Shown here: positions 22,315 to 51,381 of the stretch, piece after piece | How positions within the stretch are numbered: position 1 is the first letter of the stretch | Layout of the letters: the number at the start of each line of letters is the position of its first letter | From: Pseudomonas laurentiana | GTDB lineage: Bacteria; Pseudomonadota; Gammaproteobacteria; Pseudomonadales; Pseudomonadaceae | Assembly (NCBI RefSeq): GCF_014648275.1 | Contig: NZ_BMQU01000015.1 | Span: 62,001-126,000, forward strand | DNA length: 64,000 nucleotides | Reading direction: 5' to 3' | Translations under genes and position numbers: made by a program | Notes under the pieces: generated by a model | Seen by the model: only the letters and a program-made list of their open reading frames with translations | Told to the model about the DNA's origin: nothing | The model's database searches: none

Positions 22315-22704
22315 TTACGCCATCGGCGTACACAGCTCTACCAGCAGCCCATCAGGGCAGCGCAGGTATGAGACGGTTTGCCCCCAGGGCTTTTGCTCGG
22401 GAGCCTTGAGTTCGGTTGCGCCGCAGGCCAATGCCTGGGTGTGGGCGGCCTCGACGGCGTCGGTGGCGAGTGCGATTTCCATGCCCAGCGGTCGGGTTGA
22501 TTCAGCCGCCAGCACCAGGCCTTCTGGCAAGTTGGCCTGGCCTAGCGCCTGCGAGGCAAAAGCCAGTGTGGTGGCCCCGGTGTCCAGTTCGCCATAGTCG
22601 CCGGACTCATGCAGAAAACGCCGGGTAATGCCAAAGGCACGTTCAAAGAACGCCAGCGATGCGGCGACATCGGGTACGTAGAGAATGGTGTACGCAAACT
22701 TCAT
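22315..22704 (-). CDS. VOC family (glyoxalase-fold) protein
   Basis: The 129-residue protein has two beta-alpha-beta-beta-beta modules of the vicinal oxygen chelate fold: KFAYTILYVPDVAASLAFFERAFG at the start and WGQTVSYLRCPDGLLVELCTP at the end. Such proteins are metal-dependent lyases, dioxygenases, isomerases or antibiotic-binding proteins; nothing here fixes which. The start at 22704 is chosen for AAAGGA 7 bases upstream. It is convergent with the DUF1329 gene and lies ahead of topB on the same strand. Confidence 0.82.
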   Translation of the reverse strand: MKFAYTILYVPDVAASLAFFERAFGITRRFLHESGDYGELDTGATTLAFASQALGQANLPEGLVLAAESTRPLGMEIALATDAVEAAHTQALACGATELKAPEQKPWGQTVSYLRCPDGLLVELCTPMA

Positions 22705-35630: not shown

Positions 35631-36077
35631 ATGACCCTGCAACTGATTCGTGCCACTGACCTGCATCTGCCGTTTGCTCGCGCGTTGACGTGCCGCAACA
35701 TGCTGCCGTACTACCGAGAGTACGACCTGCTCTGGATGGACGAAGCGTTTGATCAGGCCTGGACCTGGCGTGAACAATGGCTGATCGTCGACGGTGAGCA
35801 GCTATTGGGCTTCTGCAGCCTGAGCCAGGACGCCCGGGCGTTGTTCATTCGCGAGCTGCAGGTGACGGAAAGCGCCCGGGGGCAGGGCGTCGGTTCCTGG
35901 GCATTGGAGCAGTTGGCCGCCTGGGCCGCAGCGCGGCGCCTGCCGTTGTTGCGCCTGACCGTGTTCAAGAGCAACCCGGCGCAGGGCTTGTACCGACGCC
36001 GGGGCTTTGAAGCGGTGGGGGAGGATGATTGCTTTGTACGCATGCAGCGCGTTATTGCACGGCCGCCACCTGGTTGA
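35631..36077 (+). CDS. GNAT family N-acetyltransferase
   Basis: The 148-residue protein has the acetyl-CoA motif VTESARGQGVGSWALEQLAAW, where Arg-Gly-Gln-Gly-Val-Gly is the pyrophosphate loop, and a C-terminal YRRRGFEAVGEDDCFVRM. It transfers an acetyl group to an amine; the target is unknown. Its last 26 bases overlap the end of the convergent algG-like gene. It occupies the place beside the exopolysaccharide operon where algA stands in classical alginate clusters, but has no relation to AlgA. Confidence 0.82.
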   Translation: MTLQLIRATDLHLPFARALTCRNMLPYYREYDLLWMDEAFDQAWTWREQWLIVDGEQLLGFCSLSQDARALFIRELQVTESARGQGVGSWALEQLAAWAAARRLPLLRLTVFKSNPAQGLYRRRGFEAVGEDDCFVRMQRVIARPPPG

Positions 36078-37515
36078 CGCGGATCACCTGGTGCTGACGC
36101 AGGGTTGCGTCGAGCAGCAGGCTCTGGACGGGCAGCAGATCGCCGATCAATAGGTTCTGTAGCAGGGGGGTACCGTTGAAGCGGTTAGGCCCCAGATCCA
36201 CCTGGTTCAAGCCTTCGACCCGCACCACCGCCTTGCCGACCTGGCCCAGGGTGTTGCCACTGAGGATCAACGGGCCGGGCAGGGCGCTGGCGTTGCGCAG
36301 GCTGATGGCATACTCCGGGGTGTTGCCGATACGGTTGTTGATCAAGGTTGCCGCTGAGACGTCGCTGGCATCTATCGCACTGCCCTGGCTGCTGCCGATC
36401 AGGTTGTCGTCAATCAACAGGGGGGCCTCGGCAGTGGAGTGCACGCTGCGCAGCAGGATACCGTTGCCCCGGCTGGCGCCAATGCGGTTGCGGCTCAGCA
36501 TCAGCGCACCGTGTTGTTCACTGACCTCGATGGCCGCCTTGTTGGCGCCAAGGATCAGGTTGCCCTCGACCAGGGCCCGTGTGTTCCCGCGCAGGCGGAT
36601 GGCGCTGTTGTTGTCGACGCCGCGAATCTGGTTCTGGCTGACCAGCGCCTGGCTGTCGCGGATATCCAGGGCGTACTGCTGCGATTGCTCAAAGCGATTG
36701 CTGTCGAATTGGGCCAGCGTATGTTGCAGTTCTACCGCACTGAGTTCGTTGAACTGGCTGTTGCGGACCAGCAGCGTTGCCGGCCGGCTGTTGACGGGCT
36801 GCTGCACACTGAGCGCGGTACTCAGGCCGCGCGACAGGTTGGCGTTGTAGCCCAGGCGATTGAGGGTCGAGTTCAGGACCTGGGTGTGGCTGCCAGCCCA
36901 GGCCACCACGAACGGTCGCCAAGCACGGTCGGTGCTGCCGGGCTTGTCGCCCGCGACGCTTTCCAGGCGCGACTGGTTCAGGCCCAACCAACCCTGGTTG
37001 ATCAGCGCCGTACCGGAATAGCTGTACAGGTACAGGCTGGTGCCTTCGAGCAGCAGACCGCCGTCGCTGGCGATCATCAGCGGGTAACTGAGCAGGTAGC
37101 CGTCCTTGTAGCGCTTGAGGATGCGCTCGTCCTTGAGGGCATCATGCAGTTGCGCAAGGGTGACGCTGCCTCCGCGAATCAGTACCACCTGCGGGTGGTG
37201 CGCCTGATAGCCAGCAATGGCACGGAACAGGCCGTTATTGACGAAGGGCTCGAACGGCCAACTGCCGCCCTGGGAGGAGAACATCGGTTGCAGGCTGACA
37301 CTGCCCCGCCCGGCGGGACGGGGTCGCTCCGGGGGACTCATCTGCACGGCCTCGCGGGCCTGGGTTTGCAGCTGTTGCAGGTGTGCCTGATGCTCAACCG
37401 TGGCGACGGTGCTGAGCGACTGCTGCAACGGCAGGCTCTGGCTGGCGGCCTGAGCGCTGCTGGCCAGCAGCAGTGCCAGGCAAGGAAAGTAGAGGTGACG
37501 GGCAAACAAGGCCAT
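36052..37515 (-). CDS. algG: AlgG-like beta-helix protein lacking the epimerase His
   Basis: The 487-residue protein has a signal peptide (cut near SSAQA, residue 23) and a right-handed beta-helix with CASH-like repeats from about residue 200 (SQNQIRGVDNNSAIRLRGN and following coils). It is the homologue of AlgG, the periplasmic mannuronan C5-epimerase and scaffold. The catalytic DPHD motif of AlgG is replaced by DIRD at residues 284-287, so the catalytic His is an Arg. Epimerase activity is therefore unlikely, while a structural role in protecting the polymer remains possible. In the P. alkylphenolia epm cluster the AlgG homologue (EpmG) is required for multicellular structures. It is the last gene of the operon, 17 bases after algL. 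Confidence 0.8.
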   Translation of the reverse strand: MALFARHLYFPCLALLLASSAQAASQSLPLQQSLSTVATVEHQAHLQQLQTQAREAVQMSPPERPRPAGRGSVSLQPMFSSQGGSWPFEPFVNNGLFRAIAGYQAHHPQVVLIRGGSVTLAQLHDALKDERILKRYKDGYLLSYPLMIASDGGLLLEGTSLYLYSYSGTALINQGWLGLNQSRLESVAGDKPGSTDRAWRPFVVAWAGSHTQVLNSTLNRLGYNANLSRGLSTALSVQQPVNSRPATLLVRNSQFNELSAVELQHTLAQFDSNRFEQSQQYALDIRDSQALVSQNQIRGVDNNSAIRLRGNTRALVEGNLILGANKAAIEVSEQHGALMLSRNRIGASRGNGILLRSVHSTAEAPLLIDDNLIGSSQGSAIDASDVSAATLINNRIGNTPEYAISLRNASALPGPLILSGNTLGQVGKAVVRVEGLNQVDLGPNRFNGTPLLQNLLIGDLLPVQSLLLDATLRQHQVIRVNQVAAVQ

Positions 37516-37532
37516 GGCGGTTCGTCCTTGGG

Positions 37533-38648
37533 TTACGGCAGTTTGGGGTAGAACGGCTTGAGCGGGCCGCCGAGCTGGCTGTAGTTGTCGACATCGCCGT
37601 CTTCGCTGTCATACAGCTGACGGGCCAGGCGGTTGTCCGGGGCGCGTTGCAGAAACGGGATCAACCACGCCAGCTTGTACGGCGCGACATCGGTCTGTGA
37701 CTGGCCCTTGAGCTCCGGCAGGTTGTCGGGGTCAAGGATGCTGCGTGCGGCGAAGTTGGCCAGCAACTCCAGGGTGTGCTGGTCCTCACTGCTCCAGGGC
37801 AGGTGGTTGGCCCGCGCCGATTCGGCCAGCAGCACCAACGGCACCAGGGCGTACTGGCTGTAGGTCGCGGCCAGTTTGCTGCGCGCTACTTCCAGCGGCA
37901 GGTAGGCATAGCTGCCATCGCTGCCACGCACGGCCTGCTGCAGGCCCCGGCGCAGGTTACCGTCGGCCCACTGGATGAAGTCGTCGCGCTGCACCAGCAT
38001 GCCGGTCGCGGCAACCGCCCAGGCAGCCCAGTAGTCATGGTTGTTGAACCAGGTGAAACCCGGGGTCTGACGCGGCTGGTACTCACGAATGATCAGTTCG
38101 CCAAGGTGCTCGAACCAGGCTTTTTGCGTGGGCGTCAGTTGAACCTGACCATTGCTCGCGGCCTGGGTCAGCAACAGGTTCGAGGCCATGGCCGCAACCG
38201 CCCATTTACGCGCGGCCATACCGGTGCTGCTGGCGTCGGGGTTGAGCAGGGCGCCCGCCTGGGCCCAGTGCTCCAGCCACTGGTCCTGACAGGCCAGGGC
38301 CATGTTCGCTTCTTGTGGCGTTTTGGCCCGCAGGAAGCGTTTGTTGGCGTAGATCAGCCCGCTGATAAAGGCTTTCACCTGCTTGCCGACCTTTTCCGTG
38401 CCAGCGTCCGGGTCACTGCGCAGGGTAGATTTGCTGGCGTCGCTCTGGTCGTACTTGCTCTGCAGTTGCAGATTGCCGGTGTAGGGCGGTGGCGGCGCTT
38501 TGCTACAGGCCAGGCTGCGGTAATCGGCAATCATCGCCGACTGTGCGCTGGCCCGTGCCGGCCAGATCGAGGTGGCGGCCAGGCTACTGCCCAGGTGCAA
38601 CGCGGCGCACAGGCCAAGCCCGGCGACGCTCCAGCGTTTTACAGGCAT
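37533..38648 (-). CDS. algL: AlgL-like mannuronate/alginate lyase
   Basis: The 371-residue periplasmic protein has a signal peptide (cut near SLAA, residue 25) and the AlgL alpha-barrel. NNHDYWAAW at 202-210 carries the Asn and His of the active site; Arg256, Tyr263 and Lys65 (QSKYD) stand where P. aeruginosa AlgL has its Arg249, Tyr256 and Lys66. All catalytic residues that I can align are therefore present, although the region between is divergent. It would cleave polymannuronate by beta-elimination and clear stray polymer from the periplasm. Its start overlaps the algX end by 10 bases. Confidence 0.83.
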   Translation of the reverse strand: MPVKRWSVAGLGLCAALHLGSSLAATSIWPARASAQSAMIADYRSLACSKAPPPPYTGNLQLQSKYDQSDASKSTLRSDPDAGTEKVGKQVKAFISGLIYANKRFLRAKTPQEANMALACQDQWLEHWAQAGALLNPDASSTGMAARKWAVAAMASNLLLTQAASNGQVQLTPTQKAWFEHLGELIIREYQPRQTPGFTWFNNHDYWAAWAVAATGMLVQRDDFIQWADGNLRRGLQQAVRGSDGSYAYLPLEVARSKLAATYSQYALVPLVLLAESARANHLPWSSEDQHTLELLANFAARSILDPDNLPELKGQSQTDVAPYKLAWLIPFLQRAPDNRLARQLYDSEDGDVDNYSQLGGPLKPFYPKLP

Positions 38649-40042
38649 AGTCGGGTTTCCACTTCAGTGGCAGCAGTGCCGGGTTTGGTGGGCTCAAGAA
38701 ACACCGAAAGCAGGTTGGCGCCGGCGAATTCCTTGGCCTTGCTCAGTTCCAGGTAGTACTGCCCGCCAGTGACAGCCGCCTCGCGGCGGAACCAGACCTT
38801 GTCACGGGCGCCGTTGTCGTAATAGACAATGACGTAGAAGTCCTTGACGTTCTTGTCGCTGATCTTGATGTCGAGAAAACCCTGGCCACTGCTGAGGTTC
38901 TTGCGCGCCTCACCGGCATTGCTGAGCAGCTCGATGCGGTCGCTGACCTTCAAGGCCGGGTGCTGCACGTGGTTGCCGAGCACGGCTGTAGAGGTCGAGC
39001 AGCCGCCTTTGATCGCCGGAATCAGTTGCCGGTACATGAGCTCGGACTCCAATTGGTAGTTGGCGGGTAACTCCCAGATGATCAGCTTGGGTGGCGCCTT
39101 GGGCTTGTAGTTCTCCGAGAGCAGGTATTCCAGTAGTGAACCCTCCTGGCCGACGCCGGGAAGGGCGTAGTTGAGGATGTCCACTTCCAGGTACTGCTTG
39201 AGGTAGCCGTCGAAGTTGAACTGCTTGCTCTCGTCCTCACGCGCGGCCGCGTTACTGTCGCCGACCAGAATGACTTCCGGGTCTGGTGCTTCGTCGAACA
39301 GTGCATTGGCGTCGTCGGCCATGGGGATGGTCTGGTGGCCACGCACGTACTGGAAGCCATAGTTGTTGCCGCAGATGTAGCTCATCGCCAGGTTCAGGGT
39401 GCCGTCCTTGGGCACCATGACGCCGGGTTCAGTGCGGTACTGCTTTTTGCTCAGCTCGTTATAGAACGGTTGCCGCCGCACCTCTTCTGCCAGCAAGCGG
39501 GCGGTCGCCTCGGCGCCACTGGGGGTCCAGTGGTGGTCACGACGAAAGAAGTACTCGCCCTTGGGCGGGGTGCGCACCAGTTGCATTGTGTCGGGCACCA
39601 CCGCGCCGGCATTACGCAGCTGTTGCAGGTAATTGCTCAGGTTGCCGCTGGCCCGGGTGAAATCGAAGCCGTGCAGTTGGTTGGCGTAGAGCTTGTCGCG
39701 GTGCATCAGCCCACGGGTGGGCTGGATCGCCATGGCGACATGGATGCCTTGTTGGCGAAACGCAGCCATCAGCCGGGCAAACTCTGGACGCATCGGCGCC
39801 GGGATACCGAAATCGTTGGTCAGGTCGACCATCGAACGGAACAGCCAGCGATTCTTGCCCGGGACAATTTCACGCATCAGCTTCATGCGCCCTTCGGCGT
39901 ACTTCTGCGGGTCGCTCAGGGCGGGGCAGGTCATGCACTCAAGGCTCTCGCAGGCACCACGCTTGCCGGGTACAGTCGCCGTGGCGGGCAGGCTGAAGCA
40001 GGCAAGGACGGCTACAAGGCCCAGGGGGAGTAAAGTCTTCAT
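38639..40042 (-). CDS. algX: AlgX-like polysaccharide O-acetyltransferase
   Basis: The 467-residue protein has a signal peptide, a cysteine-rich beginning (CESLECMTCP), an SGNH-like domain with catalytic Asp169 and His171 (DHHW), and Ser263 in GDSN, followed by a C-terminal carbohydrate-binding region. AlgX transfers acetyl groups directly to mannuronate residues in the periplasm. The Ser context is GDSN, the classical SGNH form, rather than the GTS form seen in the AlgJ of this cluster. It lies between algF and algL. In classical alginate operons AlgX precedes AlgL as here, but both stand before algI. Confidence 0.83.
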   Translation of the reverse strand: MKTLLPLGLVAVLACFSLPATATVPGKRGACESLECMTCPALSDPQKYAEGRMKLMREIVPGKNRWLFRSMVDLTNDFGIPAPMRPEFARLMAAFRQQGIHVAMAIQPTRGLMHRDKLYANQLHGFDFTRASGNLSNYLQQLRNAGAVVPDTMQLVRTPPKGEYFFRRDHHWTPSGAEATARLLAEEVRRQPFYNELSKKQYRTEPGVMVPKDGTLNLAMSYICGNNYGFQYVRGHQTIPMADDANALFDEAPDPEVILVGDSNAAAREDESKQFNFDGYLKQYLEVDILNYALPGVGQEGSLLEYLLSENYKPKAPPKLIIWELPANYQLESELMYRQLIPAIKGGCSTSTAVLGNHVQHPALKVSDRIELLSNAGEARKNLSSGQGFLDIKISDKNVKDFYVIVYYDNGARDKVWFRREAAVTGGQYYLELSKAKEFAGANLLSVFLEPTKPGTAATEVETRLCL

Positions 40043-40083
40043 GTGCGCGATTCATCATCCTGTTGAATAAGGGCCGTGGTCAT

Positions 40084-40737
40084 TCACTCGCTGGGGTCAA
40101 TGCTGTTGGCCAGGCTCAGGCTGCGGTAGCCGTTGCCCTGAGGCAGCAGCACATAGCTGTAGGAGCGACCTTTCTTCAGGAACAGTTCCTCGAACCGGGC
40201 CACGTTCTGTTCCTCGACATAGGCGGCGAAGCCGATCTTGATTTCGTTGACCATGCGGCTGCCGGTCTGGTCCTTGCCCAGCGGGTCGACGATCACGTGC
40301 TTGCCGTCCACGGTTTTCAACGCCGCCTTGGCTGGTGTCAGGTTGTAGAAGGCCACCTGGGCTTTCTTTGGTTCGTTGACGTACTTGTCGGCAATCAGGG
40401 TCAGGCTGTTGCCGTCATAGACCACGGTACTGGCTGCGTTCTTGATCAATTGCGGTTCGATCGACTTGCTACCGACCGCGATCTTGTGTGTGCCGGCAGG
40501 GGTGAAACGGTAGCCGCTCAGTTGTCCGGGGGCGACCTTTTGCGGGGTTACCTTGCCGCTCAGGGTCACGTCGATCGTGCTGTTGCTCAGGTTCAATACC
40601 CGAACAAAGGCCGAGTCGGCCGGGGCCACGGCGTCGTAAAGGTCGGCGTTGCCTTCGGCGGCGAGCACCACCGGCGTGTTCAGTACGCCAAAGGCCAGGG
40701 CGCTGGCGGCCAGGAACTGTTGCAAGGTGCGGGTCAT
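40084..40737 (-). CDS. algF: AlgF-like alginate acetylation adaptor
   Basis: The 217-residue secreted protein has a signal peptide (cut near VVLA, residue 26) followed by two beta-rich domains (DSAFVRVLNLSNSTIDVTLSG; QVAFYNLTPAKAALKTVDG). AlgF connects AlgJ and AlgX in the acetylation machinery of the periplasm. It is not catalytic. AAAGGAAGATCCCC precedes the ATG. It comes 12 bases after algJ and 41 bases before algX. Confidence 0.82.
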   Translation of the reverse strand: MTRTLQQFLAASALAFGVLNTPVVLAAEGNADLYDAVAPADSAFVRVLNLSNSTIDVTLSGKVTPQKVAPGQLSGYRFTPAGTHKIAVGSKSIEPQLIKNAASTVVYDGNSLTLIADKYVNEPKKAQVAFYNLTPAKAALKTVDGKHVIVDPLGKDQTGSRMVNEIKIGFAAYVEEQNVARFEELFLKKGRSYSYVLLPQGNGYRSLSLANSIDPSE

Positions 40738-40749
40738 GGGGATCTTCCT

Positions 40750-41844
40750 TTAAAAGTGTTGGGGCTGGGCTGGGCGGCTGAGTGAACCGATCCGATGGGC
40801 AAGCAGGGTGCGCAGCGGGAACTCCCAGACCACGGTGTCGATCTGTGGGTTGGCCAGTTGGTCGCTTTGCAGGAATTGGGTCATGGCCTCGAAGGGTCCC
40901 CGGGCCTCGACGGCGACACTGAGCAGGTCACGGTTAAGCGCTTCCTTGAGGAAGCCGACGAAGTTCCAGTCATCGATCTTGCTGTAGCTGGTGCCGACCA
41001 ACAGCAGGCTCTGGTGTTCCTCGGCGAACAGCTCATCGGCGCTCTGCCCGGCCTTGAGGGTCTCGTAGACGGCGATCGAATTGGCACCGAACTGTGGGGC
41101 CAGAGGGCTTTGCCCAAACTGGATGTAGTTCATCAAGTCGCCCTTGACGACTTTTTCCGCCACCTTGTTCGACACGTAGCGTTCGTCACCGAGCAACTCT
41201 GGCCGCTGGCGGGCCAGTTCATAGGCGGTCAGGCGGGCACCTTCCGGGCTCCAGTGGGTGTCGGACTTGAGGAACAGTTCATGCCCGTCCAGGTGCTGCA
41301 GGAAGGTCGAGCGCACCGGCGTGACAGTGATGTGTCGCGCCTGCAGCTGGCTGACGAAGCGGTCATACAGGCTGACTGCCCGAGGGTCGAAGGGGCGCTG
41401 GGTATGAGCCGCATAGATGTCCAGCTTCATCGGCAAGGGCAGCACGATCAGGCGCTTGTTGTGCTGTTTGAGTTGCTGCTCGACCGCGGCAATTTTTGCC
41501 AGTTGCCCCTCAAGGTTGGCGTCCAGGTCGTTGGGTACGCGGTACTCCTGGTTGGTGTAGAGCCAGCCATCCTTGCCCAGCACCACACCTTTGGTGCCTT
41601 CGCCAAACAGTTGGTATTGGGCGTTGGCCCACAGTGCTACAGAGGGTTCGCGCAGGAAGAAACGCTTGTCGTAGGCCTGCTCGAACTTGCGCAGCAACTT
41701 GCCATCGACGAACAGCGTCCAGGCGTCGCTCTGGTTTTTGGCAAAACTGAAAACGGGCGGCAGCGAGTAGATGAACATCCCCGCCAACACCAGGCAGAAC
41801 AGAATGCCGTTGACCTTGCTTGCCGAGTTGAACACCGGGTACAT
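40750..41844 (-). CDS. algJ: AlgJ-like O-acetyltransferase
   Basis: The 364-residue protein has an N-terminal signal anchor (ILFCLVLAGMFIYSLPPVF) and an SGNH-like domain with Asp195-Thr-His197 (DTHW) and Ser288 in GTSYS, the same triad positions as known for AlgJ. It receives acetyl groups through AlgI and passes them on for O-acetylation of the polymer. All catalytic residues are present, so acetylation should work. AGGAGACTGCC lies before its ATG; it directly follows algI by 9 bases. Confidence 0.85.
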   Translation of the reverse strand: MYPVFNSASKVNGILFCLVLAGMFIYSLPPVFSFAKNQSDAWTLFVDGKLLRKFEQAYDKRFFLREPSVALWANAQYQLFGEGTKGVVLGKDGWLYTNQEYRVPNDLDANLEGQLAKIAAVEQQLKQHNKRLIVLPLPMKLDIYAAHTQRPFDPRAVSLYDRFVSQLQARHITVTPVRSTFLQHLDGHELFLKSDTHWSPEGARLTAYELARQRPELLGDERYVSNKVAEKVVKGDLMNYIQFGQSPLAPQFGANSIAVYETLKAGQSADELFAEEHQSLLLVGTSYSKIDDWNFVGFLKEALNRDLLSVAVEARGPFEAMTQFLQSDQLANPQIDTVVWEFPLRTLLAHRIGSLSRPAQPQHF

Positions 41845-41853
41845 GGCAGTCTC

Positions 41854-43281
41854 CTAGAACTGGAAGTACAGGAAGGGCGAGAAGGAGTGCGCAGCCAGGC
41901 TGCTCAGCGCCAGGCCGAAGCCGCACCACAGCAGCATGGCCTTGAGGCCGCCGACGTGGCGCATGAAGTAGTGCTCCTTGTTGCCGGCGTAATAGCGCAC
42001 GTTGTTGGTCCCGGCCAGGATCAGCCAGCACAGCGCCACCGCGGCGAAGGACATGGCCATCTTCGAGGCGCCGAGTACGTACAACTCCAGTGAGCCGACG
42101 CCGTTGAAGCCGAACAGTGCCTGGTAGATGTCCAGGCTATGGCGCAGGTCGTTGGTGAAGAACAACGGCATGCTGAGGATGATCAACAGCGCAGTGCGCA
42201 GGTTGCGGCCCAGGTGGTAGGGCGTGGTGACTTTGGTCGCCAGGTCGAATGTGCGTTCGATCACCATGCCGAAGCCGAAGAACAACCCCCAGCAGATGAA
42301 CGCGAAGCTGGCGCCGTGCCACAAGCCCGACAGCAGCATGGTGTAGACCAATGCGGGCAGGGCGCCGGCAATGCGTTTGCGTACCAGCGGCATGTACACG
42401 TAGTCGCGCAGGAAGTGCGCCAGGGTCATGTGCCAGCGGGCCCAGAACTCGGTGATGCTCTGCGAGACGTAGGGTTGGTTGAAGTTCTCCGGGAAACGGA
42501 AGCCCATCATCAAGGCCAGGCCCAGGGCCATATGGCTGTAGCCGGCGAAGTCGAAGTACAACTGCAGGGTAGAGACCACCAGGCCAAACCAGGCATCGCT
42601 CAACTGCAGGGTGCCCTCACTGACAAACAGCACGTTGATTGGCGCCAGTTGGTCGGCAATCAGCACCTTCATGATGAAGCCGAGCATGAACCGGCATACG
42701 CCCAGGGAGAACAGCTCCAGCGAATGGGTGCGCTGGCGCAGCTGCGGGGCCAACTGGCTGTAGCGCAGGATCGGCCCGGCCACCAAGTGAGGGAACAGGG
42801 CGACGAAAGCCGCGAAGTCGATGAAGTTGTTGGTCGGCGTGGCGTCCTTGCGGTAGATATCGACGATGTAGCTCAGGGCATGGAACACATAGAAGGAGAT
42901 GCCCAGCGGCAGGAAAATCGTCTCCAGGGTAAAGGTATTGATGCCCAGTGGCGCCAGCAGCGCGGCCAGTACTTCGGCGCCGAAGTTGGCGTACTTGAAG
43001 TAGCCCAGGGTCGACAGGTTGCCGATGATGCCGATCCACAACAGCCGAAATGCCCAGCGTTTGTCGCCGGCATCCAGGCGAGCCTTGATGCGCAGGCCGA
43101 ACCCGTAGTTCCAGTAGGTGATGGCAACGAACAGCAGCAAAAAGTCCGGACGCCACCAGGCGTAGAAGATGTAGCTGGCGGCCACGATCACCGTTGAACG
43201 CCACTGCGGCCGGGCAAGGAAGTAGACGGCCAGGAACAGCGGCAGGTAGAGGAACAGAAAGACGTTGGAGGCGAAGATCAT
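41854..43281 (-). CDS. algI: AlgI-like membrane-bound O-acyltransferase
   Basis: The 475-residue MBOAT protein has about ten or more membrane helices, with the conserved SGLWHGASF segment holding the catalytic His and LGYFKYANF and NQPYVSQSITEFWARWHMTL before it. It moves acetyl groups across the inner membrane to AlgJ/AlgX. In this operon it follows algE directly, whereas in the classical alginate operon algG, algX and algL stand between. The start MIFASNVFLFLYLPLF is the family start. Confidence 0.88.
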   Translation of the reverse strand: MIFASNVFLFLYLPLFLAVYFLARPQWRSTVIVAASYIFYAWWRPDFLLLFVAITYWNYGFGLRIKARLDAGDKRWAFRLLWIGIIGNLSTLGYFKYANFGAEVLAALLAPLGINTFTLETIFLPLGISFYVFHALSYIVDIYRKDATPTNNFIDFAAFVALFPHLVAGPILRYSQLAPQLRQRTHSLELFSLGVCRFMLGFIMKVLIADQLAPINVLFVSEGTLQLSDAWFGLVVSTLQLYFDFAGYSHMALGLALMMGFRFPENFNQPYVSQSITEFWARWHMTLAHFLRDYVYMPLVRKRIAGALPALVYTMLLSGLWHGASFAFICWGLFFGFGMVIERTFDLATKVTTPYHLGRNLRTALLIILSMPLFFTNDLRHSLDIYQALFGFNGVGSLELYVLGASKMAMSFAAVALCWLILAGTNNVRYYAGNKEHYFMRHVGGLKAMLLWCGFGLALSSLAAHSFSPFLYFQF

Positions 43282-43295
43282 CTCGGGGCCCGTCC

Positions 43296-44753
43296 TTAGT
43301 AGCTGATCACGACGCCGAGCGTCAGCTGGTAGTCATCGCCGGTGTCCAGCGCGTTACCTGCATTCAGGTAGCTGGCGCTGACCAGGGTGTTGACGTCCAG
43401 GTGTTTGCCGTCGATGGCCACCGGAAACATCTTCCAGTAGTAGTTGAGGTCGAGCATTTGCCCGACGGTCTTGCCACCGGTAGGGGTGCCTTGGTTGATC
43501 GCCTGGTTGCGCGCACTGCGCTGGTCGCCGTCGATGCGAATCGGCAGGGTACCTTCGGCGTCGCGCAGCTTGAGCTCGGTAAGTCGCAGGTCCAGAGCGC
43601 TGCGTGGGGTTGGCTGGGTTTCCAGAGCGAAGCCGTAGTAACTGAGGTTGCGCAGGTCCAGGCTGACAAAGGAACTGGTCAGGCGGGTGCTGTAGGAGCC
43701 CTGGCGGGTGATGCGGTCAGACTGGATGGTGTTCAGGCGAAAGCCATCGTTATCATCACTGGGCTTGTCGGTCAGGCCACCGCGCAATGCCACGCGGGGG
43801 GTCCAGGGCAGGTCGTGAAAGCGCTTGCCGATCTCGCCCAGCGCGGCCCAGCCGCGGGTACTGTGGCCGGTGCTGGTGATGCCCTTGCCGTCGGTGTTGT
43901 CGATCTCGCCGTCGAGCCCGGCCAGTTCCACGTGGTAGTCGCTGAACAGTGGGCTGACCTGCAAGTCATCGGCCTTGAAGAACAACCCGTAGCGCATGCC
44001 CGTGAAGTCGTAGCGGTCTTCGGGGTCGTGGCCGCTGTGGTCGTCTTCATGCATCAGGCGTACGCCCGCCCAGTTATGCTCGCTCCAGCGGTAGGCATAC
44101 TCACCCATCAAGTAGGTGGTGCGCTCTTCGCTGTCGGCCAGGGTGTTGACGTCACTGTTGTAGTTGTAGAACTTCTGCGCGACGGCGAGAAAGCCATGGG
44201 CGAAGGTGTCGTTGTAGTTGAAACGCAGCGACTCAAGGCTGTCATCCCACCAGATCCCGTAGTCGTCAAAGTAGCGCTGGCGGCCTGCTGACAGTGAAAA
44301 GCGCGGGTCGTCGCCCAGCAGGTTGCGTTTGACGTACAGTTCGCGCATTTCGGCGTACCAGCCTTCAGGCTGCTCACGGTCGACGCTGTTGGCGTTCTCG
44401 TTTTGCACGCTGATCGATTGGCTGGAGTCATAGTCCAGCCACAGGCGGCCGTAGACCTGCCACTTGGCCCAGCGTTTTTCCGGCGAGTACCAGACGAACG
44501 AGGGCTCATAGCGCAGGCTGTAGAACATTTCGCGACTACGACCGACCTGGGAGTTTTCCGGGCCGTAGCCGGTTTGCAGCGTAAGCTTGTTGAAAAACTC
44601 CGAGGTAATCACCGGCTCGCTGCCATCGTTGGCGGCAACCCGCACCGGCTCGTTGCTGTCGGCTTCCGGGCCGGTGATTTCTTCGGCAGCCAAGGCCGTG
44701 TAAACAGGGGTCAGGGCGAGCAGGGCGCCGAACAGGGAATGGTGCGCTTTCAC
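43296..44753 (-). CDS. algE: AlgE-like outer-membrane export porin
   Basis: The 485-residue protein has a signal peptide (cut near TALA, residue 22) and a beta-barrel with alternating aromatic strands, such as WAKWQVYGRLWLDYDSSQS and the end DDYQLTLGVVISY with a terminal Tyr. AlgE exports alginate through an 18-stranded arginine-rich pore. The gene begins with GTG, which overlaps the algK stop (GTGA), and AAGGAGG stands 6 bases ahead. It is followed by algI, a break from the classical order. Confidence 0.85.
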   Translation of the reverse strand: MKAHHSLFGALLALTPVYTALAAEEITGPEADSNEPVRVAANDGSEPVITSEFFNKLTLQTGYGPENSQVGRSREMFYSLRYEPSFVWYSPEKRWAKWQVYGRLWLDYDSSQSISVQNENANSVDREQPEGWYAEMRELYVKRNLLGDDPRFSLSAGRQRYFDDYGIWWDDSLESLRFNYNDTFAHGFLAVAQKFYNYNSDVNTLADSEERTTYLMGEYAYRWSEHNWAGVRLMHEDDHSGHDPEDRYDFTGMRYGLFFKADDLQVSPLFSDYHVELAGLDGEIDNTDGKGITSTGHSTRGWAALGEIGKRFHDLPWTPRVALRGGLTDKPSDDNDGFRLNTIQSDRITRQGSYSTRLTSSFVSLDLRNLSYYGFALETQPTPRSALDLRLTELKLRDAEGTLPIRIDGDQRSARNQAINQGTPTGGKTVGQMLDLNYYWKMFPVAIDGKHLDVNTLVSASYLNAGNALDTGDDYQLTLGVVISY

Positions 44754-46195
44754 AGGGTAGCCTCCTTCAACAGATCGTTACGGGCCACCAGGGCGCGTTC
44801 GATGTCATCCTTTTTCAGGGTTTTTTCCAGACGTTTGAGCAGGCTGCGCGCACCGTTCTCGCCCAGGTCCAGGGCGACCCGTGCATAGGTGTAGGCCTTG
44901 ACCGGGTCATGACAGATGGCCCGGCCATAGGCGTGCAGGGTCGCCATGCGGTACCAGGCCGCGGTGGAGCCGGCTTGTGCCTGTTGCTGGAAAATCGCCA
45001 GGGCTTTTTGCTGGTCGGGTTCATCCTCGACACCCTTGCTGTAGTACTCGCCAAGCAGCAGTTGGGCATCGGGGTAGTGGCTGGCGATCAACTCGTCGAT
45101 CAGTGCTCGGGCTTTGTCCGGGTCGAGGGTGAGCCAGTTGTTGACCATGTAGAACGAGGCTTGCAGTGCCTTGGCCCGGGTTGGCTCCTGGGTCTTTACC
45201 TGATCGATCAGGCTTTGGGTTTCCTCGGCATTGTGCTCGGTCGGGTTCGAGATCATGTAGTTGGCCTTGGACACCATCGCCGGGACAAAGCCGCGCTCCA
45301 CTGCGTTGTCACGCCAGCGATGTGCCTCGGCGGTGGCAACATCGAGGGCCTCGGCCTCGGCCTTCTCCCGCGCCAGTTGCTGTGGGCTCGGTTGCGCTTT
45401 GTCCGGGCCCATGCCGTTGGCCTGGCGCTCGTAGCGGTCAGCGTCCTGTTCGGCACGGCGGACACTGGTAATGCTGTCGAGCAACGAGCCGATACGGTGA
45501 ACGATGTCCACCGGCAGCTTGGGGCGCTCGCTTTCCAGGGTTCGGGCGAACGCCGGAAAGGCCGTGTCCTGATCGTCCCCAAGGAAGCGGTAATAGCGGT
45601 CGATGGCCCGCAGGTCGACCCGCACCGCCTGTTGATAGCCTCGCTCGGCAGCAACGCGGTCGCCCTGGCGCTCGGCCAGAACGGCGCGGTACAACTCGGG
45701 GCGGCAGTTAAGCAGGCACGATTGCTCATACAGGCCAAGCACCTGCGCCGCCTCACGAGGTGGCACCAGTTCCGGGTACACCAGGAACACTTCCAGGGTC
45801 GTGCTGGCGTTACGCGGATCGAGGTTACTCGGGTAACGCGTGAGCGCCTGTTCGACCCAGGCGCGCTGGCCCTGACGCAGGCCGGGGCTACGGTCGAGCA
45901 GGCGCGCCAGTGAGGCCAGCGCCGGGACCAGCCCGCGACCGTCGGCAAAGGCCTCGTGGTACAGGCGAATCACTTCCTGGCGGCTGGCACCGTCACTGCT
46001 CGACAGCAGGTCGCCCAGCAGCAGCTTGGACGCCAGGTCACCACGCTCGGCCAGCACCCGCAGATCGGCCGTAACCTCGGCGCTGGGGTCTTTGTACAGC
46101 GCATAGCGGATTTGCTCCAGGCTCTGTCCGGCCAGTGCAGGGGCAGTGCAGGCCAGGGCTCCGAACAGCAACCAGGTGGGCGTCATCGGTTTCAT
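44750..46195 (-). CDS. algK: AlgK-like periplasmic TPR/Sel1 scaffold
   Basis: The 481-residue protein has a signal sequence and then Sel1-like helical repeats (ASKLLLGDLLSSSDGASRQEVIRLYHEAFADG; AAWYRMATLHAYGRAI...VKAYTYARVALDLG). AlgK links the inner-membrane polymerase to the AlgE pore and is a lipoprotein in P. aeruginosa. Here the cysteine lies in GALACTAP, a poor lipobox (Ala at -3, Leu at -2), and a normal cleavage site ALA-GQ follows. Lipidation is therefore uncertain. The body is divergent, and the assignment rests partly on gene position. Confidence 0.75.
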   Translation of the reverse strand: MKPMTPTWLLFGALACTAPALAGQSLEQIRYALYKDPSAEVTADLRVLAERGDLASKLLLGDLLSSSDGASRQEVIRLYHEAFADGRGLVPALASLARLLDRSPGLRQGQRAWVEQALTRYPSNLDPRNASTTLEVFLVYPELVPPREAAQVLGLYEQSCLLNCRPELYRAVLAERQGDRVAAERGYQQAVRVDLRAIDRYYRFLGDDQDTAFPAFARTLESERPKLPVDIVHRIGSLLDSITSVRRAEQDADRYERQANGMGPDKAQPSPQQLAREKAEAEALDVATAEAHRWRDNAVERGFVPAMVSKANYMISNPTEHNAEETQSLIDQVKTQEPTRAKALQASFYMVNNWLTLDPDKARALIDELIASHYPDAQLLLGEYYSKGVEDEPDQQKALAIFQQQAQAGSTAAWYRMATLHAYGRAICHDPVKAYTYARVALDLGENGARSLLKRLEKTLKKDDIERALVARNDLLKEATL

Positions 46196-46205
46196 CGCTC
46201 GACCC

Positions 46206-47354
46206 TTAGCGCGACAGCGACGGCAGACCGAGGAACAGGTCTACTGCCACCGGTTTCAGATAGGCCTGGGCTGGCAAGCGCGTGTCCGTACGGATCGTCA
46301 GGGCCAGGTTCTTGTTCAGTTCATCCACCCGCGAGTCCACCACCGTGCCGGTGAAGCGTTCGTCGAGGCCGAATACCTGCAGGTCGACCGAGGTCACCCG
46401 GGTAATGTCGGTGAGCTTGTCGAACGGCACGTTGGCGGTGACGAACAGGTCTTCGTTTTTGGGCAACAGGTGCATCAGTGGAGCCTGCTTGTAGCCGAAG
46501 CCATCAAGCGGCTTGCTTGGGAAGTACACCTGGCAGTCGCACGGGCTGTTGATCACGGTTTCGATGGTGGCGCGCCCGAGCAGGGTTTGCAGGTCGCCGG
46601 GCGACAGGTCGGCGACTGCCTTCATGTCGGCCGGGCTGGTAAAGCTGGTGGCCAGTTGCGTGGAGATACTGGCTACCGGCTCGCCGGCCTTGACCTCGGT
46701 TTGCCCCGGTTGCAGCAGGAACTTCACATAGCCGTTGTCGGGCATGCTGATGACTTGGGCATTGGCCGACACCTGGGCTTGCACGGCCGGGATGCGGAAC
46801 AACAGCAGGTAGCTTTTGTACGCGACGAAACTCAGTGCGGCGATCCCTGCCACGGTATACAGCAGGGTGCCGGTCATGGCTTTGAGACGGTCGCCAGCCG
46901 TACGCGCACTGGCATACGTGTGCTTGCGTTCCTTGATGTAGTTTTCGCGCTGCATCACATTGAACAGGCCATTGATGTCAGCGATCTCGCCGGACATGTA
47001 GGCGGTGATGATGTAGCGCAGGATGTCGCGCTTCTGTGTATCGAGGTCAACGAACTGTGCGCCGACCTCCTGGCCGCGCTGGGAAACGATCTTGACCTTG
47101 CTGTCGATGTTCAGGTCGATCTGATTCAGGCGCAGTTTGATCGAGGCGGTGTACAGGCTGCCGATTTTCAGCGGATCGGCATGAACCAGGCCTATGCCAC
47201 CCAGGGAAATGTCCTGCAGCGTGCTCTCGAATGCGGGTTGTCCCGTCGCGCTGAGCAGGACCCGGGCATTGAGTTTGGTGCGCACGTACTGACGTTCGTC
47301 AATCGCTTCATGGACCACATTGGCCGGTACTGTTGGGGTGCTGGAGTTACTCAT
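46206..47354 (-). CDS. alg44: Alg44-like c-di-GMP receptor of the polymerase
   Basis: The 382-residue protein starts with a PilZ domain whose c-di-GMP-binding residues are intact: RQYVR at residues 21-25 and DISLGG at 48-53. A single membrane helix follows near residue 150 (TVAGIAALSFVAYKSYLLLF), then a periplasmic part of membrane-fusion-protein type. Alg44 binds c-di-GMP and is needed for Alg8 polymerase activity, so production here is expected to depend on c-di-GMP. It follows alg8 by 15 bases. Confidence 0.86.
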   Translation of the reverse strand: MSNSSTPTVPANVVHEAIDERQYVRTKLNARVLLSATGQPAFESTLQDISLGGIGLVHADPLKIGSLYTASIKLRLNQIDLNIDSKVKIVSQRGQEVGAQFVDLDTQKRDILRYIITAYMSGEIADINGLFNVMQRENYIKERKHTYASARTAGDRLKAMTGTLLYTVAGIAALSFVAYKSYLLLFRIPAVQAQVSANAQVISMPDNGYVKFLLQPGQTEVKAGEPVASISTQLATSFTSPADMKAVADLSPGDLQTLLGRATIETVINSPCDCQVYFPSKPLDGFGYKQAPLMHLLPKNEDLFVTANVPFDKLTDITRVTSVDLQVFGLDERFTGTVVDSRVDELNKNLALTIRTDTRLPAQAYLKPVAVDLFLGLPSLSR

Positions 47355-47369
47355 GACAGGCGCCTTTCC

Positions 47370-48902
47370 TTAACGTTGCGTGAGTTCGAGAAGAACCGAG
47401 ATGACCCCGAAGAAGATCGCGATGGAAGAAAACAGCATCGCCTTGGAGGACCAGCGGTTCAGGGCCGCATCGAAGTTGACGCGGCCGTTGCTCAATGTGG
47501 TTTTCTGTCGGGTCCAGCGTTGTTGGTCCATGTGGAACATTGCGTAAACCTTCATCACCGAGCCGACGATCTGGTTGTAATAGAGAACGAAGGGGTACAC
47601 CGGGCTGACCGGGTGCCCGGCGAACAGGAACATCACCGTGACCAGGGTGCGCGACAGCAGTACCCAGAACAGGTACACCAGCAGGTACTGAATGCCGAAC
47701 ACCAGGCCGGCCACCACCGATGCGGTCAGGCCCATCAGGCACGTCCACATCGATACCCGCTGATCCAGCAGCACATACAGGGTGAACAGCCCCAGCCGCG
47801 CACGACCCAGCAGGTGGGTTGCGCGAAAATTCTGCCGTAGCGAGTTGCCGTACCAGCGGAACATCAGTTGCCGGGTTGCGCGCCAGAAGCTGTTATCTGG
47901 CGGATGCTCCACGGTCAGGGTGTTGCTGTCGGGCACGTAGAAGGTGTCCCAGCCAGCGCGCATCAGGCTCAACCAGGATGACTTGTCGTCACCGGTGAGG
48001 AACTGGAAGCGGCCCAGGCGCCAATGTTCGAGGAAGTCGGCCTCGACATCCCTGATGAACTCGGGGTCGGTCATCACGCTGGCGCGGAAGAACGACAGCC
48101 GCCCGGTGAGGGTCAGCACCCGATGCGACAGGGCCATCGAGCACATATTGATGTGCCGTTGAACAAAGCGCATCGAGTGCCATTCGCGCATCAGGCGGCT
48201 GCCCTCGACCTCGCAGAACTCGTTGGTGGTCAGGCCACCGACATTGGGCAGGTAGGCAAACAGCTTGACCGCGCGTTCGACACAGCCAGGCAGCATCATG
48301 GTGTCGCCATCGACCACGCCGACCACCGAGTCTTCCATGGGCATCTGCCGCGACAGTGCGCGAAAGGCATGCGCCAGGCCATCACGTTTACCGGTGCCCC
48401 GGGCGCGGACGATTACCAGCTTGATGTCGTCGCGGTCCTTGACCTCGTTGCGCATGATGTCCTTGATAAAGTGCTCGTCGCCTTTCTCGACGATCGAGGC
48501 AATCACCGTGCACGGGACCTTGAGCCGTTGCACTTCCTGAAACACCGACTGGTAGACCTTGAAGGTGGTGTGGGTCGGAATGCGGAAGCTGGTGACCACC
48601 ATGAACAGGTGGGCGGGCAGTGCCGCATCGCCCATGCGCTCGACGGCCTTGCGAATGCGTGGAAACTTCCAATGCAGGAAGTACATGCCGCGCAGGTAGT
48701 GGACAATGGCGTTGCCATAGCGCCACAGGCCCAGCGTACCGATGACGAAAATGAACAGGTGGTGGTCAGGGTCGAGGTACTGCGGCGCGATCATTTCCGA
48801 GGCCAGCGCGATGAGGCCGAACAGGCAGGCCCAGGCACAGAAACGTGCGCTGGCCCTGAGCGTGTTCGATTGACCTGCAGGCTGGCCTGAGTGTCGTTCC
48901 AT
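47370..48902 (-). CDS. alg8: Alg8-like glycosyltransferase, polymannuronate synthase
   Basis: The 510-residue family 2 glycosyltransferase has membrane helices at the start (CAWACLFGLIALASEMI) and end, and a cytosolic catalytic domain with VVGVVDGDTMML (DxD-type metal site), the acidic pair in TGDDKSSW, and a RHINMCSMALSHRV segment. It polymerises GDP-mannuronic acid, supplied by AlgD. AAGGAG stands before the ATG at 48902. The 138-base gap to algD holds only a small hairpin (48961-48975, GCCCGC-AGG-GCGGGC). Confidence 0.86.
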   Translation of the reverse strand: MERHSGQPAGQSNTLRASARFCAWACLFGLIALASEMIAPQYLDPDHHLFIFVIGTLGLWRYGNAIVHYLRGMYFLHWKFPRIRKAVERMGDAALPAHLFMVVTSFRIPTHTTFKVYQSVFQEVQRLKVPCTVIASIVEKGDEHFIKDIMRNEVKDRDDIKLVIVRARGTGKRDGLAHAFRALSRQMPMEDSVVGVVDGDTMMLPGCVERAVKLFAYLPNVGGLTTNEFCEVEGSRLMREWHSMRFVQRHINMCSMALSHRVLTLTGRLSFFRASVMTDPEFIRDVEADFLEHWRLGRFQFLTGDDKSSWLSLMRAGWDTFYVPDSNTLTVEHPPDNSFWRATRQLMFRWYGNSLRQNFRATHLLGRARLGLFTLYVLLDQRVSMWTCLMGLTASVVAGLVFGIQYLLVYLFWVLLSRTLVTVMFLFAGHPVSPVYPFVLYYNQIVGSVMKVYAMFHMDQQRWTRQKTTLSNGRVNFDAALNRWSSKAMLFSSIAIFFGVISVLLELTQR

Positions 48903-49040
48903 GTTGCCGTTTCTCCTTGTTGATGGCGGCACCCGTCATTGACGCGGCTGCACGTCGCCGGCCCGCAGGGCGGGCAGACGCTGGCAGGTCATGTCAATGG
49001 ATGATCGGGGCCGCGTGCTCTCTTGGTGGAGCGTTCAGGC

Positions 49041-50348
49041 TTACCAGCAGATTCCTTCGCGGGAGGCATCGCTGGTATGCGGCATGAAGCCCACCAGGTC
49101 GACGATCTGCTTGTTGTCGTCTCTTTCCAGTGCCTGGGCGAAACGACTGTCGTTGTTGCCGAGAACGATCACGTCCGAGTGGTCGATCACCTGCTGCAAG
49201 TCGTTGCAGAGCAGTGAGGAGACGTGCGGGATTTTTCCTTCGATGTAATCGCGGTTGGCCCCGAACACCCGTGCGTACTCGACATTGGCATCGTAGATGC
49301 GCAGGTCATAACCTTTGCCGATCAGCATCTCGGCCAGTTCCACCAATGGGCTTTCACGCAGGTCATCGCTACCGGCCTTGAAACTCAAACCGAGCAGTCC
49401 GATACGACGCTTGTCGAACCCGGTCACCAGGTCGAATGCGTTTTGTACCTGGCTACGGTTGCTGGCCATGATCGAGGCCAGCAGTGGGTGTTCGACGTCC
49501 AGCTGGCCGGCGCGGTAGGTGAGGGCGCGCACATCCTTGGGCAGGCACGAGCCGCCAAAGGCAAAACCAGGGCGCAGGTAGTAGCGTGACAGGTTGAGTT
49601 TGTGGTCCTGGCAGACCACATCCATCACTTCACGACCATCCACGCCCGAGGCTTTGGCGATGTTGCCGATCTCGTTGGCAAAGCTGACCTTGGTCGCATG
49701 CCAGACGTTGCAGGTGTACTTGATCATCTCTGCGACTTCGATCGACTTGCGAATCACCGGTGCGTCCAGACCCTCGTACAGCGACTGCAACAGATCACCG
49801 GACTGGCTGTCGAGCTCACCGATGACGGTCATTGCCGGGAAGTCGTAGTCTTTGATGGCCGTACTTTCGCGGAGGAACTCCGGGTTCACTGCGACGCCGA
49901 AGTCGACACCGGCACGTTTGCCGGATGTGGCTTCGAGCAGCGGGATGACCACAGTGTTCACCGTGCCGGGCAGCACGGTGCTGCGCACCACGACGGTATG
50001 CCGGGAAGGCTTGTCACGCAGCGCTTCACCGATCTGGCGGCACACCGCCTCCATGTAGACCAGGTCCAGGTCGCCGTTTTTCTTGCTTGGTGTGCCAACG
50101 CAGAGCAGCGAAAGATCGGTGTCCAGCACAGCGCCTTGAACATCCGTCGTGCCATGCAGAAGCCCTTTGCGTAGCCCCTCCTGCAGCAACGCCTCCAGGT
50201 CGGGCTCAACAATAGGTGATTTGCCCTGGTTGATCATCTCGATCTTGGCCTGGGAAATATCGACGCCGATCACCTGATGTCCGCGGGCCGAAAGGCAACC
50301 GGCGCAGACAGCTCCAACATAACCCAATCCAAAAATACTGATTCGCAT
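49041..50348 (-). CDS. algD: GDP-mannose 6-dehydrogenase
   Basis: The 435-residue protein is very close to AlgD of P. aeruginosa throughout, for instance FGLGYVGAVCAGCLSARGH (NAD fold), NQGKSPIVEP, the catalytic cysteine in FGGSCLPKDVRAL, and the end PHTSDASREGICW. It oxidises GDP-mannose to GDP-mannuronic acid in two steps, the committed step of the pathway. GDP-mannose supply is not encoded here, since algA is absent. It heads the 11-gene operon, with GAGGGAACT before the ATG, and matches epmD of the P. alkylphenolia epm cluster by position. Confidence 0.95.
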   Translation of the reverse strand: MRISIFGLGYVGAVCAGCLSARGHQVIGVDISQAKIEMINQGKSPIVEPDLEALLQEGLRKGLLHGTTDVQGAVLDTDLSLLCVGTPSKKNGDLDLVYMEAVCRQIGEALRDKPSRHTVVVRSTVLPGTVNTVVIPLLEATSGKRAGVDFGVAVNPEFLRESTAIKDYDFPAMTVIGELDSQSGDLLQSLYEGLDAPVIRKSIEVAEMIKYTCNVWHATKVSFANEIGNIAKASGVDGREVMDVVCQDHKLNLSRYYLRPGFAFGGSCLPKDVRALTYRAGQLDVEHPLLASIMASNRSQVQNAFDLVTGFDKRRIGLLGLSFKAGSDDLRESPLVELAEMLIGKGYDLRIYDANVEYARVFGANRDYIEGKIPHVSSLLCNDLQQVIDHSDVIVLGNNDSRFAQALERDDNKQIVDLVGFMPHTSDASREGICW

Positions 50349-51015
50349 AGTTCCCTCTTCCCCGGTTCATCAGATGACCCAGGATAGTTAGTTAGACGTG
50401 TTTATAGGGCGGCAGGCGCACGCTGACAGCCAGCGCAACGTTGTACAGCGCAGGTGGTTTTTCTGTTTTTTTTACATCCTATAGGACGACTTTTAATCGT
50501 TGCAAGACGTTGATACTTGATAAGTTGCTAAACGTTGAAATTAACGTGGTTAAGTTTAAAAAACTGTTATAAAACAATGACTTAAAGTTTGATGTAAGTT
50601 AGGCGTCAAAAAACCGAATGCTTATTTGTGGTGATTTTTCTGGCGCCAAAATACAGCCATTGTGCGTTTTTAGCCTTGATTTCCCGGATCTTGTTCATTT
50701 TTTTGGCGCAGGTGTACACGCTGTGCCGGTCGCCGAAGTTTGGGTGTTTTAGTGTGTGATGGAAAAATGCCAGCAATGCATGGCTATAACTTTCAATGGC
50801 CTGCAGTGTGGTCGTGATATTGAACTTTTATAGGGCGGACAATAACGTTAAGCCGGTTGTGCCTATCGGCGGATATGGCCTGTCTTGCGTGACGCTGCCG
50901 AAGGTTGGCTTGTATTGCGTGCAGCATCGCGTGCATAGTTTGGGTGCTGTTTCGTTACCTACTGTTGTTTTCAGGGAACACCCTTGGGGTGTCGTGTAAG
51001 GGATTGTGTATTCAG
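50349..51015. other. Long AT-rich regulatory region of the exopolysaccharide operon
   Basis: This 667-bp gap between algD and the XRE gene holds no supported gene. It is far richer in A and T than the flanks. It contains the palindrome TCCTATAGGA at 50477-50486, two copies of TTTATAGGGCGG at 50401-50412 and 50827-50838, and repeated ACGTTGA around 50510-50540. No AlgU-type promoter pair is visible for algD. The length and the repeats fit a complex promoter with distant regulator sites, as at algD of P. aeruginosa. Confidence 0.5.
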
Positions 51016-51381
51016 ATGACTGGAATCGGTTCGCGTATCAGGGAAGAAAGAGAACGGCTCAGGCTGACTCAGCGGGCTTTTGGCGACATCGGTGGCGTCG
51101 AGCCCAACGCACAGGGCAAGTACGAGAGTGGCGAGCGCACCCCCAAGCTGGATTACCTGGCTGCAGTGGCGGGGCGGGGAGTCGATGCCTTGTATGTGCT
51201 CAGCGGGGTGCATACCCCGGTGGCGGCCACCGGCTTGTCGCCGGCTGAAGGCCAGTTGCTCGACTGCTATCGTGCATTGCCGCAGGCTGATCAGGAGGCT
51301 GTGGCGCAGTTGCTGCACAGCTTGTCCAGGGGCATGCAGCGACCTGTGGTGGGTGTAAGGAAATTGACGTCGGTATCATGA
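51016..51381 (+). CDS. XRE family transcriptional regulator
   Basis: The 121-residue protein has an N-terminal Cro/CI helix-turn-helix (IGSRIREERERLRLTQRAFG, then GKYESGERTPKLDYLAAVAG) and a short C-terminal helical tail. The start at 51016 (MTGIGSR) is chosen because it places the HTH as usual; the ribosome binding site is weak. It stands between the exopolysaccharide operon (divergent) and gacA (same direction, 79 bases). Either neighbour could be a target, but nothing shows this. Confidence 0.8.
   Translation: MTGIGSRIREERERLRLTQRAFGDIGGVEPNAQGKYESGERTPKLDYLAAVAGRGVDALYVLSGVHTPVAATGLSPAEGQLLDCYRALPQADQEAVAQLLHSLSRGMQRPVVGVRKLTSVS

Follow-up and report, generated by a model that had tools for sequence, protein, structure and literature searches.

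We analysed a window of 64,000 nucleotides and found that positions 36052-50348 hold eleven open reading frames, all intact and all on the minus strand, in the order algD-8-44-K-E-I-J-F-X-L-G (positions read in the window). A preliminary description of this DNA had proposed these eleven minus-strand genes in this order, and every frame was found where it had been placed. Intergenic gaps range from -10 to +41 bp, but 108 bp separate algD from alg8. The features are, from the upstream end:

50548..50613, minus strand: conserved block, about 200-265 bases before the algD start, from upstream alignment and motif scan
49041..50348, minus strand: algD/epmD homologue, GDP-mannose dehydrogenase, 435 aa, Pfam UDPG_MGDP_dh
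47370..48932, minus strand: alg8 homologue, GT2 polymerase, 520 aa, GTG start, Pfam GT2
46206..47354, minus strand: alg44 homologue, PilZ co-polymerase, 382 aa, Pfam PilZ
44750..46195, minus strand: algK homologue, TPR/Sel1 periplasmic protein, 481 aa, Sel1 and partial AlgK match
43296..44753, minus strand: algE homologue, outer-membrane exporter, 485 aa, GTG start, Pfam Alginate_exp
41854..43281, minus strand: algI homologue, MBOAT protein, 475 aa, Pfam MBOAT
40750..41844, minus strand: algJ homologue, SGNH-like, 364 aa, Pfam ALGX domain
40084..40737, minus strand: algF homologue, 217 aa, Pfam AlgF
38639..40042, minus strand: algX homologue, acetyltransferase with CBM, 467 aa, Pfam ALGX and CBM_26
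37533..38648, minus strand: algL homologue, alginate-lyase family, 371 aa, Pfam Alginate_lyase
36052..37515, minus strand: algG/epmG homologue, beta-helix protein without the DPHD epimerase motif, 487 aa

For D, 8, 44, I, J, X and L, we checked motifs across 68-74 epm-type rows, with residue roles as known for these families. GGSCLPKD of the AlgD homologue is present in both epm-type and canonical rows, and the Alg8 homologue keeps DGD and TGDDKSSW. By its Pfam match and motifs, the window Alg44 carries the c-di-GMP receptor PilZ domain of canonical operons, and its RxxxR and DxSxGG are retained across 74 epm-type rows. The acetylation proteins keep WHG and RWH (AlgI), DTHW and GxSY (AlgJ), and DxHW and GxSN (AlgX, in epm-type rows; the canonical Ser motif of AlgX is poorly aligned in the 5 canonical rows). 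The AlgL homologue scores above the NF001469 'polysaccharide lyase' cut-off and keeps NNH and R...Y. The AlgK homologue matches the NF038194 AlgK model partially and below its cut-off. A loosely defined lipobox-like pattern occurs in 16 of 74 epm-type AlgK rows and is weak in the window AlgK (44750-46195); by this pattern match, most epm-type AlgK are candidates for plainly secreted proteins, unlike the canonical AlgK of the relative L028.

The conserved upstream block was delimited in an alignment of 32 regions (the window and L034-L064), and pieces of it recur elsewhere, for example in P. otitidis and P. citronellolis. By eye, partial conservation is also visible for a TTGCAA-17-TATAGG pair about 157 bases ahead of algD. 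Two promoter searches were unproductive: the AlgU-type pattern GAACTT-N17-TCTGA, scanned with a 17-base spacer and at most 2 mismatches, gave 5 window matches against 7.8 expected and none near the operon start, and no consensus sigma-70 promoter was found in the scan of 50300-51100. A divergent HTH_3 gene (51016-51381, plus strand) lies upstream of the operon, with conserved counterparts in 28 of the 32 loci L034-L065; it may be an epm regulator or a gene of the gacA neighbourhood. Also upstream are genes that, by their domains, are taken to encode a GacA-type regulator and UvrC. In 29 of these 32 loci the cluster is flanked by gacA-uvrC on one side and a GNAT gene on the other; contig ends truncate L034 and L065, and none of the flanks is matched in L064.

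Canonical operons are arranged differently. The genes run D-8-44-K-E-G-X-L-I-J-F in the relative L028, and an algA of the TIGR01479 family stands at the far end of the canonical operon of P. alkylphenolica xwS2; the window operon departs from the canonical order D-8-44-K-E-G-X-L-I-J-F-A. An exchange of two blocks had been suggested, and I-J-F have indeed moved ahead, but the change is not a mere swap, since G-X-L became X-L-G. The rearrangement is therefore more than an exchange of two blocks: G went from first to last within its own block.

The genes and their order are the same as in the epm clusters of two genomes that carry the label P. alkylphenolica (xwS2, L036, and PSB00016, L038), which bears out the proposed match; these genomes, not strain KL28, served as the epm reference. 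The eleven window proteins share 74-94% protein identity with theirs. In an AlgI tree of 76 rows, built by a quick method, the window falls in a starred clade (98) of 33 algA-free rows that includes L036 and L038, and 4 canonical rows separate at 100. The cluster itself is real and of the known epm type.

We collected 67 named loci by scanning genome contigs with an AlgE-type alignment (A1). The full order D-(A)-8-44-K-E-I-J-F-X-L-G is present in 59 of them; among the other eight, L081, L087 and L089 reach contig ends, L072, L091, L094 and L095 start at alg8, and L078 has algA and algD inverted at the far end. L021 is also among the alg8-first clusters that have no algD and algA in the stretch, and there a transporter gene precedes alg8. 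By our count, epm-type AlgE at 51% identity or more occurs in 47 of 399 genus genomes searched. Epm-type Alg8 at 66% or more occurs in 15 of 198 family genomes searched; the host is counted in both cases. Distant copies are present in Marinobacterium, Shewanella and an Oceanospirillaceae MAG. Two loci, L020 (16658-17767) and L075, carry, right behind the epm-type cluster, a second alginate-lyase-like gene that shares 47-48% identity with the window AlgL. Another, L061, is titled Pantoea sp. Cy-639, yet its epm cluster resembles that of P. mosselii and is flanked by gacA-uvrC; it is probably a mislabelled Pseudomonas. The closest named locus is that of P. defluvii WCHP16 (L034), at 95-97% identity per protein and 92.4% DNA identity over 17 kb. 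At these identities, the host is near P. defluvii and probably a distinct species. The dN/dS of the window genes against P. defluvii is 0.04-0.10.

As had been noted, there is no algA within the window operon, where canonical operons have one. Across the 67 named loci, algA is present in 29, in 28 of which it sits between D and 8; in five loci outside these 67 (L015, L017, L019, L020 and L026), the open reading frames in the D-8 gaps all score above the TIGR01479 cut-off (5/5). The gene is missing from all 32 loci L034-L065 and from L072, L087, L091, L094, L095 and L100. Lacking algA is consequently no defining feature of the epm type. We call L034-L065 the P. putida side from their species names, and presume that one of them, L064 (P. 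costantinii), belongs to another group. Because most copies outside this side have algA as the second gene, its absence from the window cluster is a derived state. The window and the 32 loci share one starred clade, so a single loss of algA explains them; mapped on the AlgI tree by the same quick method, algA presence requires four changes in all. A loss confined to this strain was rejected, since all 32 loci L034-L065 are without the gene.

The host genome has one GMP_PMI gene, located on another contig, C4, and scoring 557 bits against a family cut-off of 373. Genes of this score class (555-597 bits, our own grouping) were found in 11 of the 14 relatives searched, which also hold GMP_PMI genes of more than 720 bits, with alg-operon copies among them. 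Since the host's class is common in relatives beside the higher-scoring genes, the host appears to have kept a general GMP_PMI copy.

The possibility had been raised that the host carries a second, true alginate operon. A search of its genome found one alg8, one GMD-type algD and no canonical algG. It revealed no further full-length GMD-type algD (other matches reached 36% and 31%, and one piece of 74 residues 43%) and no AlgG-type match beyond the window G. The host genome is a draft of 223 contigs, which could hide a gene; the alg site lies within one contig. In xwS2, the canonical operon sits between a 154-aa gene and a gene that by eye is yaaA-like, and the host's contig C14 has both the 154-aa gene and, from the other flank, a phoH-like gene. 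Homology to the xwS2 stretch ends at base 5467 and resumes at 22421, where the host has about 75 bp instead of about 17 kb. On these gene counts and the syntenic site, we reject a second alginate operon in the host. The same idea fares well elsewhere: of the 67 named loci, we searched the genomes of 50, and 43 of these other epm-bearing genomes gave an additional alg8 match, split or partial in a few cases, with a single alg8 in the remaining 7.

The alg site of P. defluvii is syntenic and colinear with that of the host over 12 kb (92.5%), and its genome has one alg8 and no canonical AlgG. On this evidence, the simplest reading is that the canonical operon was lost before the host and P. defluvii split. 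Because of this loss, the epm cluster is the only alginate-like system found in either. A different reduced system occurs at L029 (G127:C1:4037400-4057300), a canonical-type D-8-44-K-E-G-X-L-A operon in whose stretch algI, algJ and algF were not found; it is possibly a non-acetylated alginate system, and the same genome also has an operon with I, J and F (L030).

We compared the window G with canonical AlgG. It matches Beta_helix, and the AlgG model hits it weakly, below cut-off, over residues 14-234; the closest solved chains to its profile are AlgG 4ozy/4nk6 (E about 4e-26). Where canonical AlgG has DPHD, the mannuronan C5-epimerase motif, the window G has DIRD. The same deficit extends through 71 distinct epm-type G proteins, a set from which 8 of the 14 loci L014-L027 were dropped as duplicates of named loci, judged by the AlgE C-terminus, and in which the named L081, L087 and L089, ending before G, have no member. 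DPHD is missing in 71/71, the second canonical His is gone in 71/71, and His occupies the catalytic column in 3/71 and never follows Pro. The Tyr before DPHD is kept in 68/71 and its first Asp in 71/71, and an Arg aligns to the canonical Arg in 46/71, in a gapped stretch where the alignment is unsure. By comparison, canonical AlgG from genomes that also carry epm keeps DPHD, SREV and Tyr in 30/30 (30 of the 31 genomes having it; the G206 copy is split in two and was left out), and DPHD is present in 5/5 other canonical AlgG. The loss of the active site of G is read from the sequence alignment.

The gene has nonetheless been retained. Its dN/dS against P. defluvii is 0.078. Against L039 and L036 the ratio is 0.23-0.24, and in both of these comparisons G exceeds the other ten genes in dN and dN/dS, although its dN/dS stays well below 1. 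Judged by these substitution rates, G is kept under purifying selection though its epimerase motif is gone. A conserved QxGSWPFE stretch has no canonical counterpart in the alignment. In lists drawn from 31 sequences, H107 is the only invariant or nearly invariant His, and it lies well before the active-site helix stretch.

According to PMC4444821, the proton is probably abstracted by the DPHD His, and mutants without AlgG give oligomers; a title in the reference list of PMC4432689 states that polymer formation requires the AlgG protein but not its activity. From these statements one would predict a polymannuronate machine in which G is structural. We consider it quite probable that this epm-type operon serves polyuronate secretion and makes acetylated polymannuronate, with a structural G, in a host that has lost the canonical alg operon. 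GDP-mannose would come from the single GMP/PMI gene on the other contig and be oxidised by the AlgD homologue. Alg8 and Alg44 would polymerise the chain, putatively under c-di-GMP control through the PilZ domain. I, J, F and X would O-acetylate it, K and E would export it, and the lyase L would remove misrouted chains. The G protein, without the C5-epimerase motif, would be a structural, chain-guarding part. With the catalytic motif of G lost, the predicted product is acetylated polymannuronate without guluronate.

Could G still be an epimerase that uses another base, so that the product is true alginate with guluronate? The protein belongs to the same beta-helix family, is under purifying selection, and keeps the Tyr and first Asp of the canonical site with an aligned Arg in 46/71, so other chemistry is conceivable. 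We regard this as unlikely: DPHD and the second His are gone from all 71 proteins, H107, the sole (nearly) invariant His, is far ahead of the active-site stretch, and the host genome has no other AlgG-type match. Even less likely, in our judgement, is a different backbone or decoration, such as a mixed uronan on which G acts as a lyase or another epimerase. The strong divergence of the export proteins would suit such a polymer (E is only 26-30% identical to canonical AlgE, over part of its length, and K is 26-27% identical in 2/5 canonical loci and not found in 3/5), as would the QxGSWPFE stretch of G. Yet the Alg8 motifs TGDDKSSW and RWYGN and those of AlgD and AlgL are the same as for alginate, an alginate-lyase family gene is kept, and a published title names poly-beta-D-mannuronates.

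Finally, the cluster might be non-functional in a host that has neither algA nor the canonical operon, as the operon's missing algA and the single GMP_PMI gene of the genome would allow. Eleven intact frames with low dN/dS against P. defluvii, and a remaining GMP_PMI gene well above its cut-off, make this very improbable. Returning to a structural G, we think it probable, with somewhat less confidence than in the operon's product, that G is a structural pseudo-epimerase throughout the clade, in a long-lived natural polymannuronate system; that most of these cells keep a second operon with an intact epimerase; and that in the P. defluvii lineage the epm cluster outlived the true alginate operon and is now the sole system.

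A 2015 review (PMC4444821) states that no organism producing mannuronan had been identified in nature, for which it offers the stiffness of the chain as a reason. A title in the reference list of PMC5851621 presents P. alkylphenolia as a platform for poly-beta-D-mannuronates. Poly-beta-D-mannuronates were thus already named for that species, at least by title; the sequences add a likely cause and generality across the clade. In the open-licence literature, we found no paper on the loss of DPHD in epm-type G. What appears to be new is this motif loss throughout the epm clade, together with a host whose only alginate-like system is epm. A widespread cluster with a seemingly dead epimerase would be genetic grounds for expecting many Pseudomonas species to make pure polymannuronate. 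If G is indeed a pseudo-epimerase, these clusters separate the scaffold and catalytic roles of AlgG naturally, and the scaffold role becomes testable without point mutants. Hosts with epm only, such as P. defluvii and this strain, would offer clean polymer sources, free of canonical alginate.

Among known systems, the nearest is the epm cluster of P. alkylphenolica, reportedly described by Lee et al. in 2014 as making a substituted polymannuronate needed for aerial structures and pellicles. The window cluster likewise has eleven genes in one direction and the same order, for an alginate-like exopolysaccharide; it differs in its species and in a host without a canonical alg operon, whereas both P. 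alkylphenolica genomes have a second alg8. The epm cluster of P. alkylphenolica is also named in PMC5890197. Compared with the canonical alginate operon algD-8-44-K-E-G-X-L-I-J-F-A, the window has homologues of all parts except algA and retains the motifs that were checked in D, 8, 44, I, J, X and L, but the gene order is different, there is no terminal algA, G is without DPHD, and epm-type AlgK is mostly without a lipobox-like pattern. The wss operon for acetylated cellulose, whose WssGHI are homologous to AlgFIJ according to PMC4148444, shares acetylation genes of the AlgI-J-F type, there serving another polymer; unlike wss, the window cluster has a polymerase, an exporter and a lyase of alginate families.
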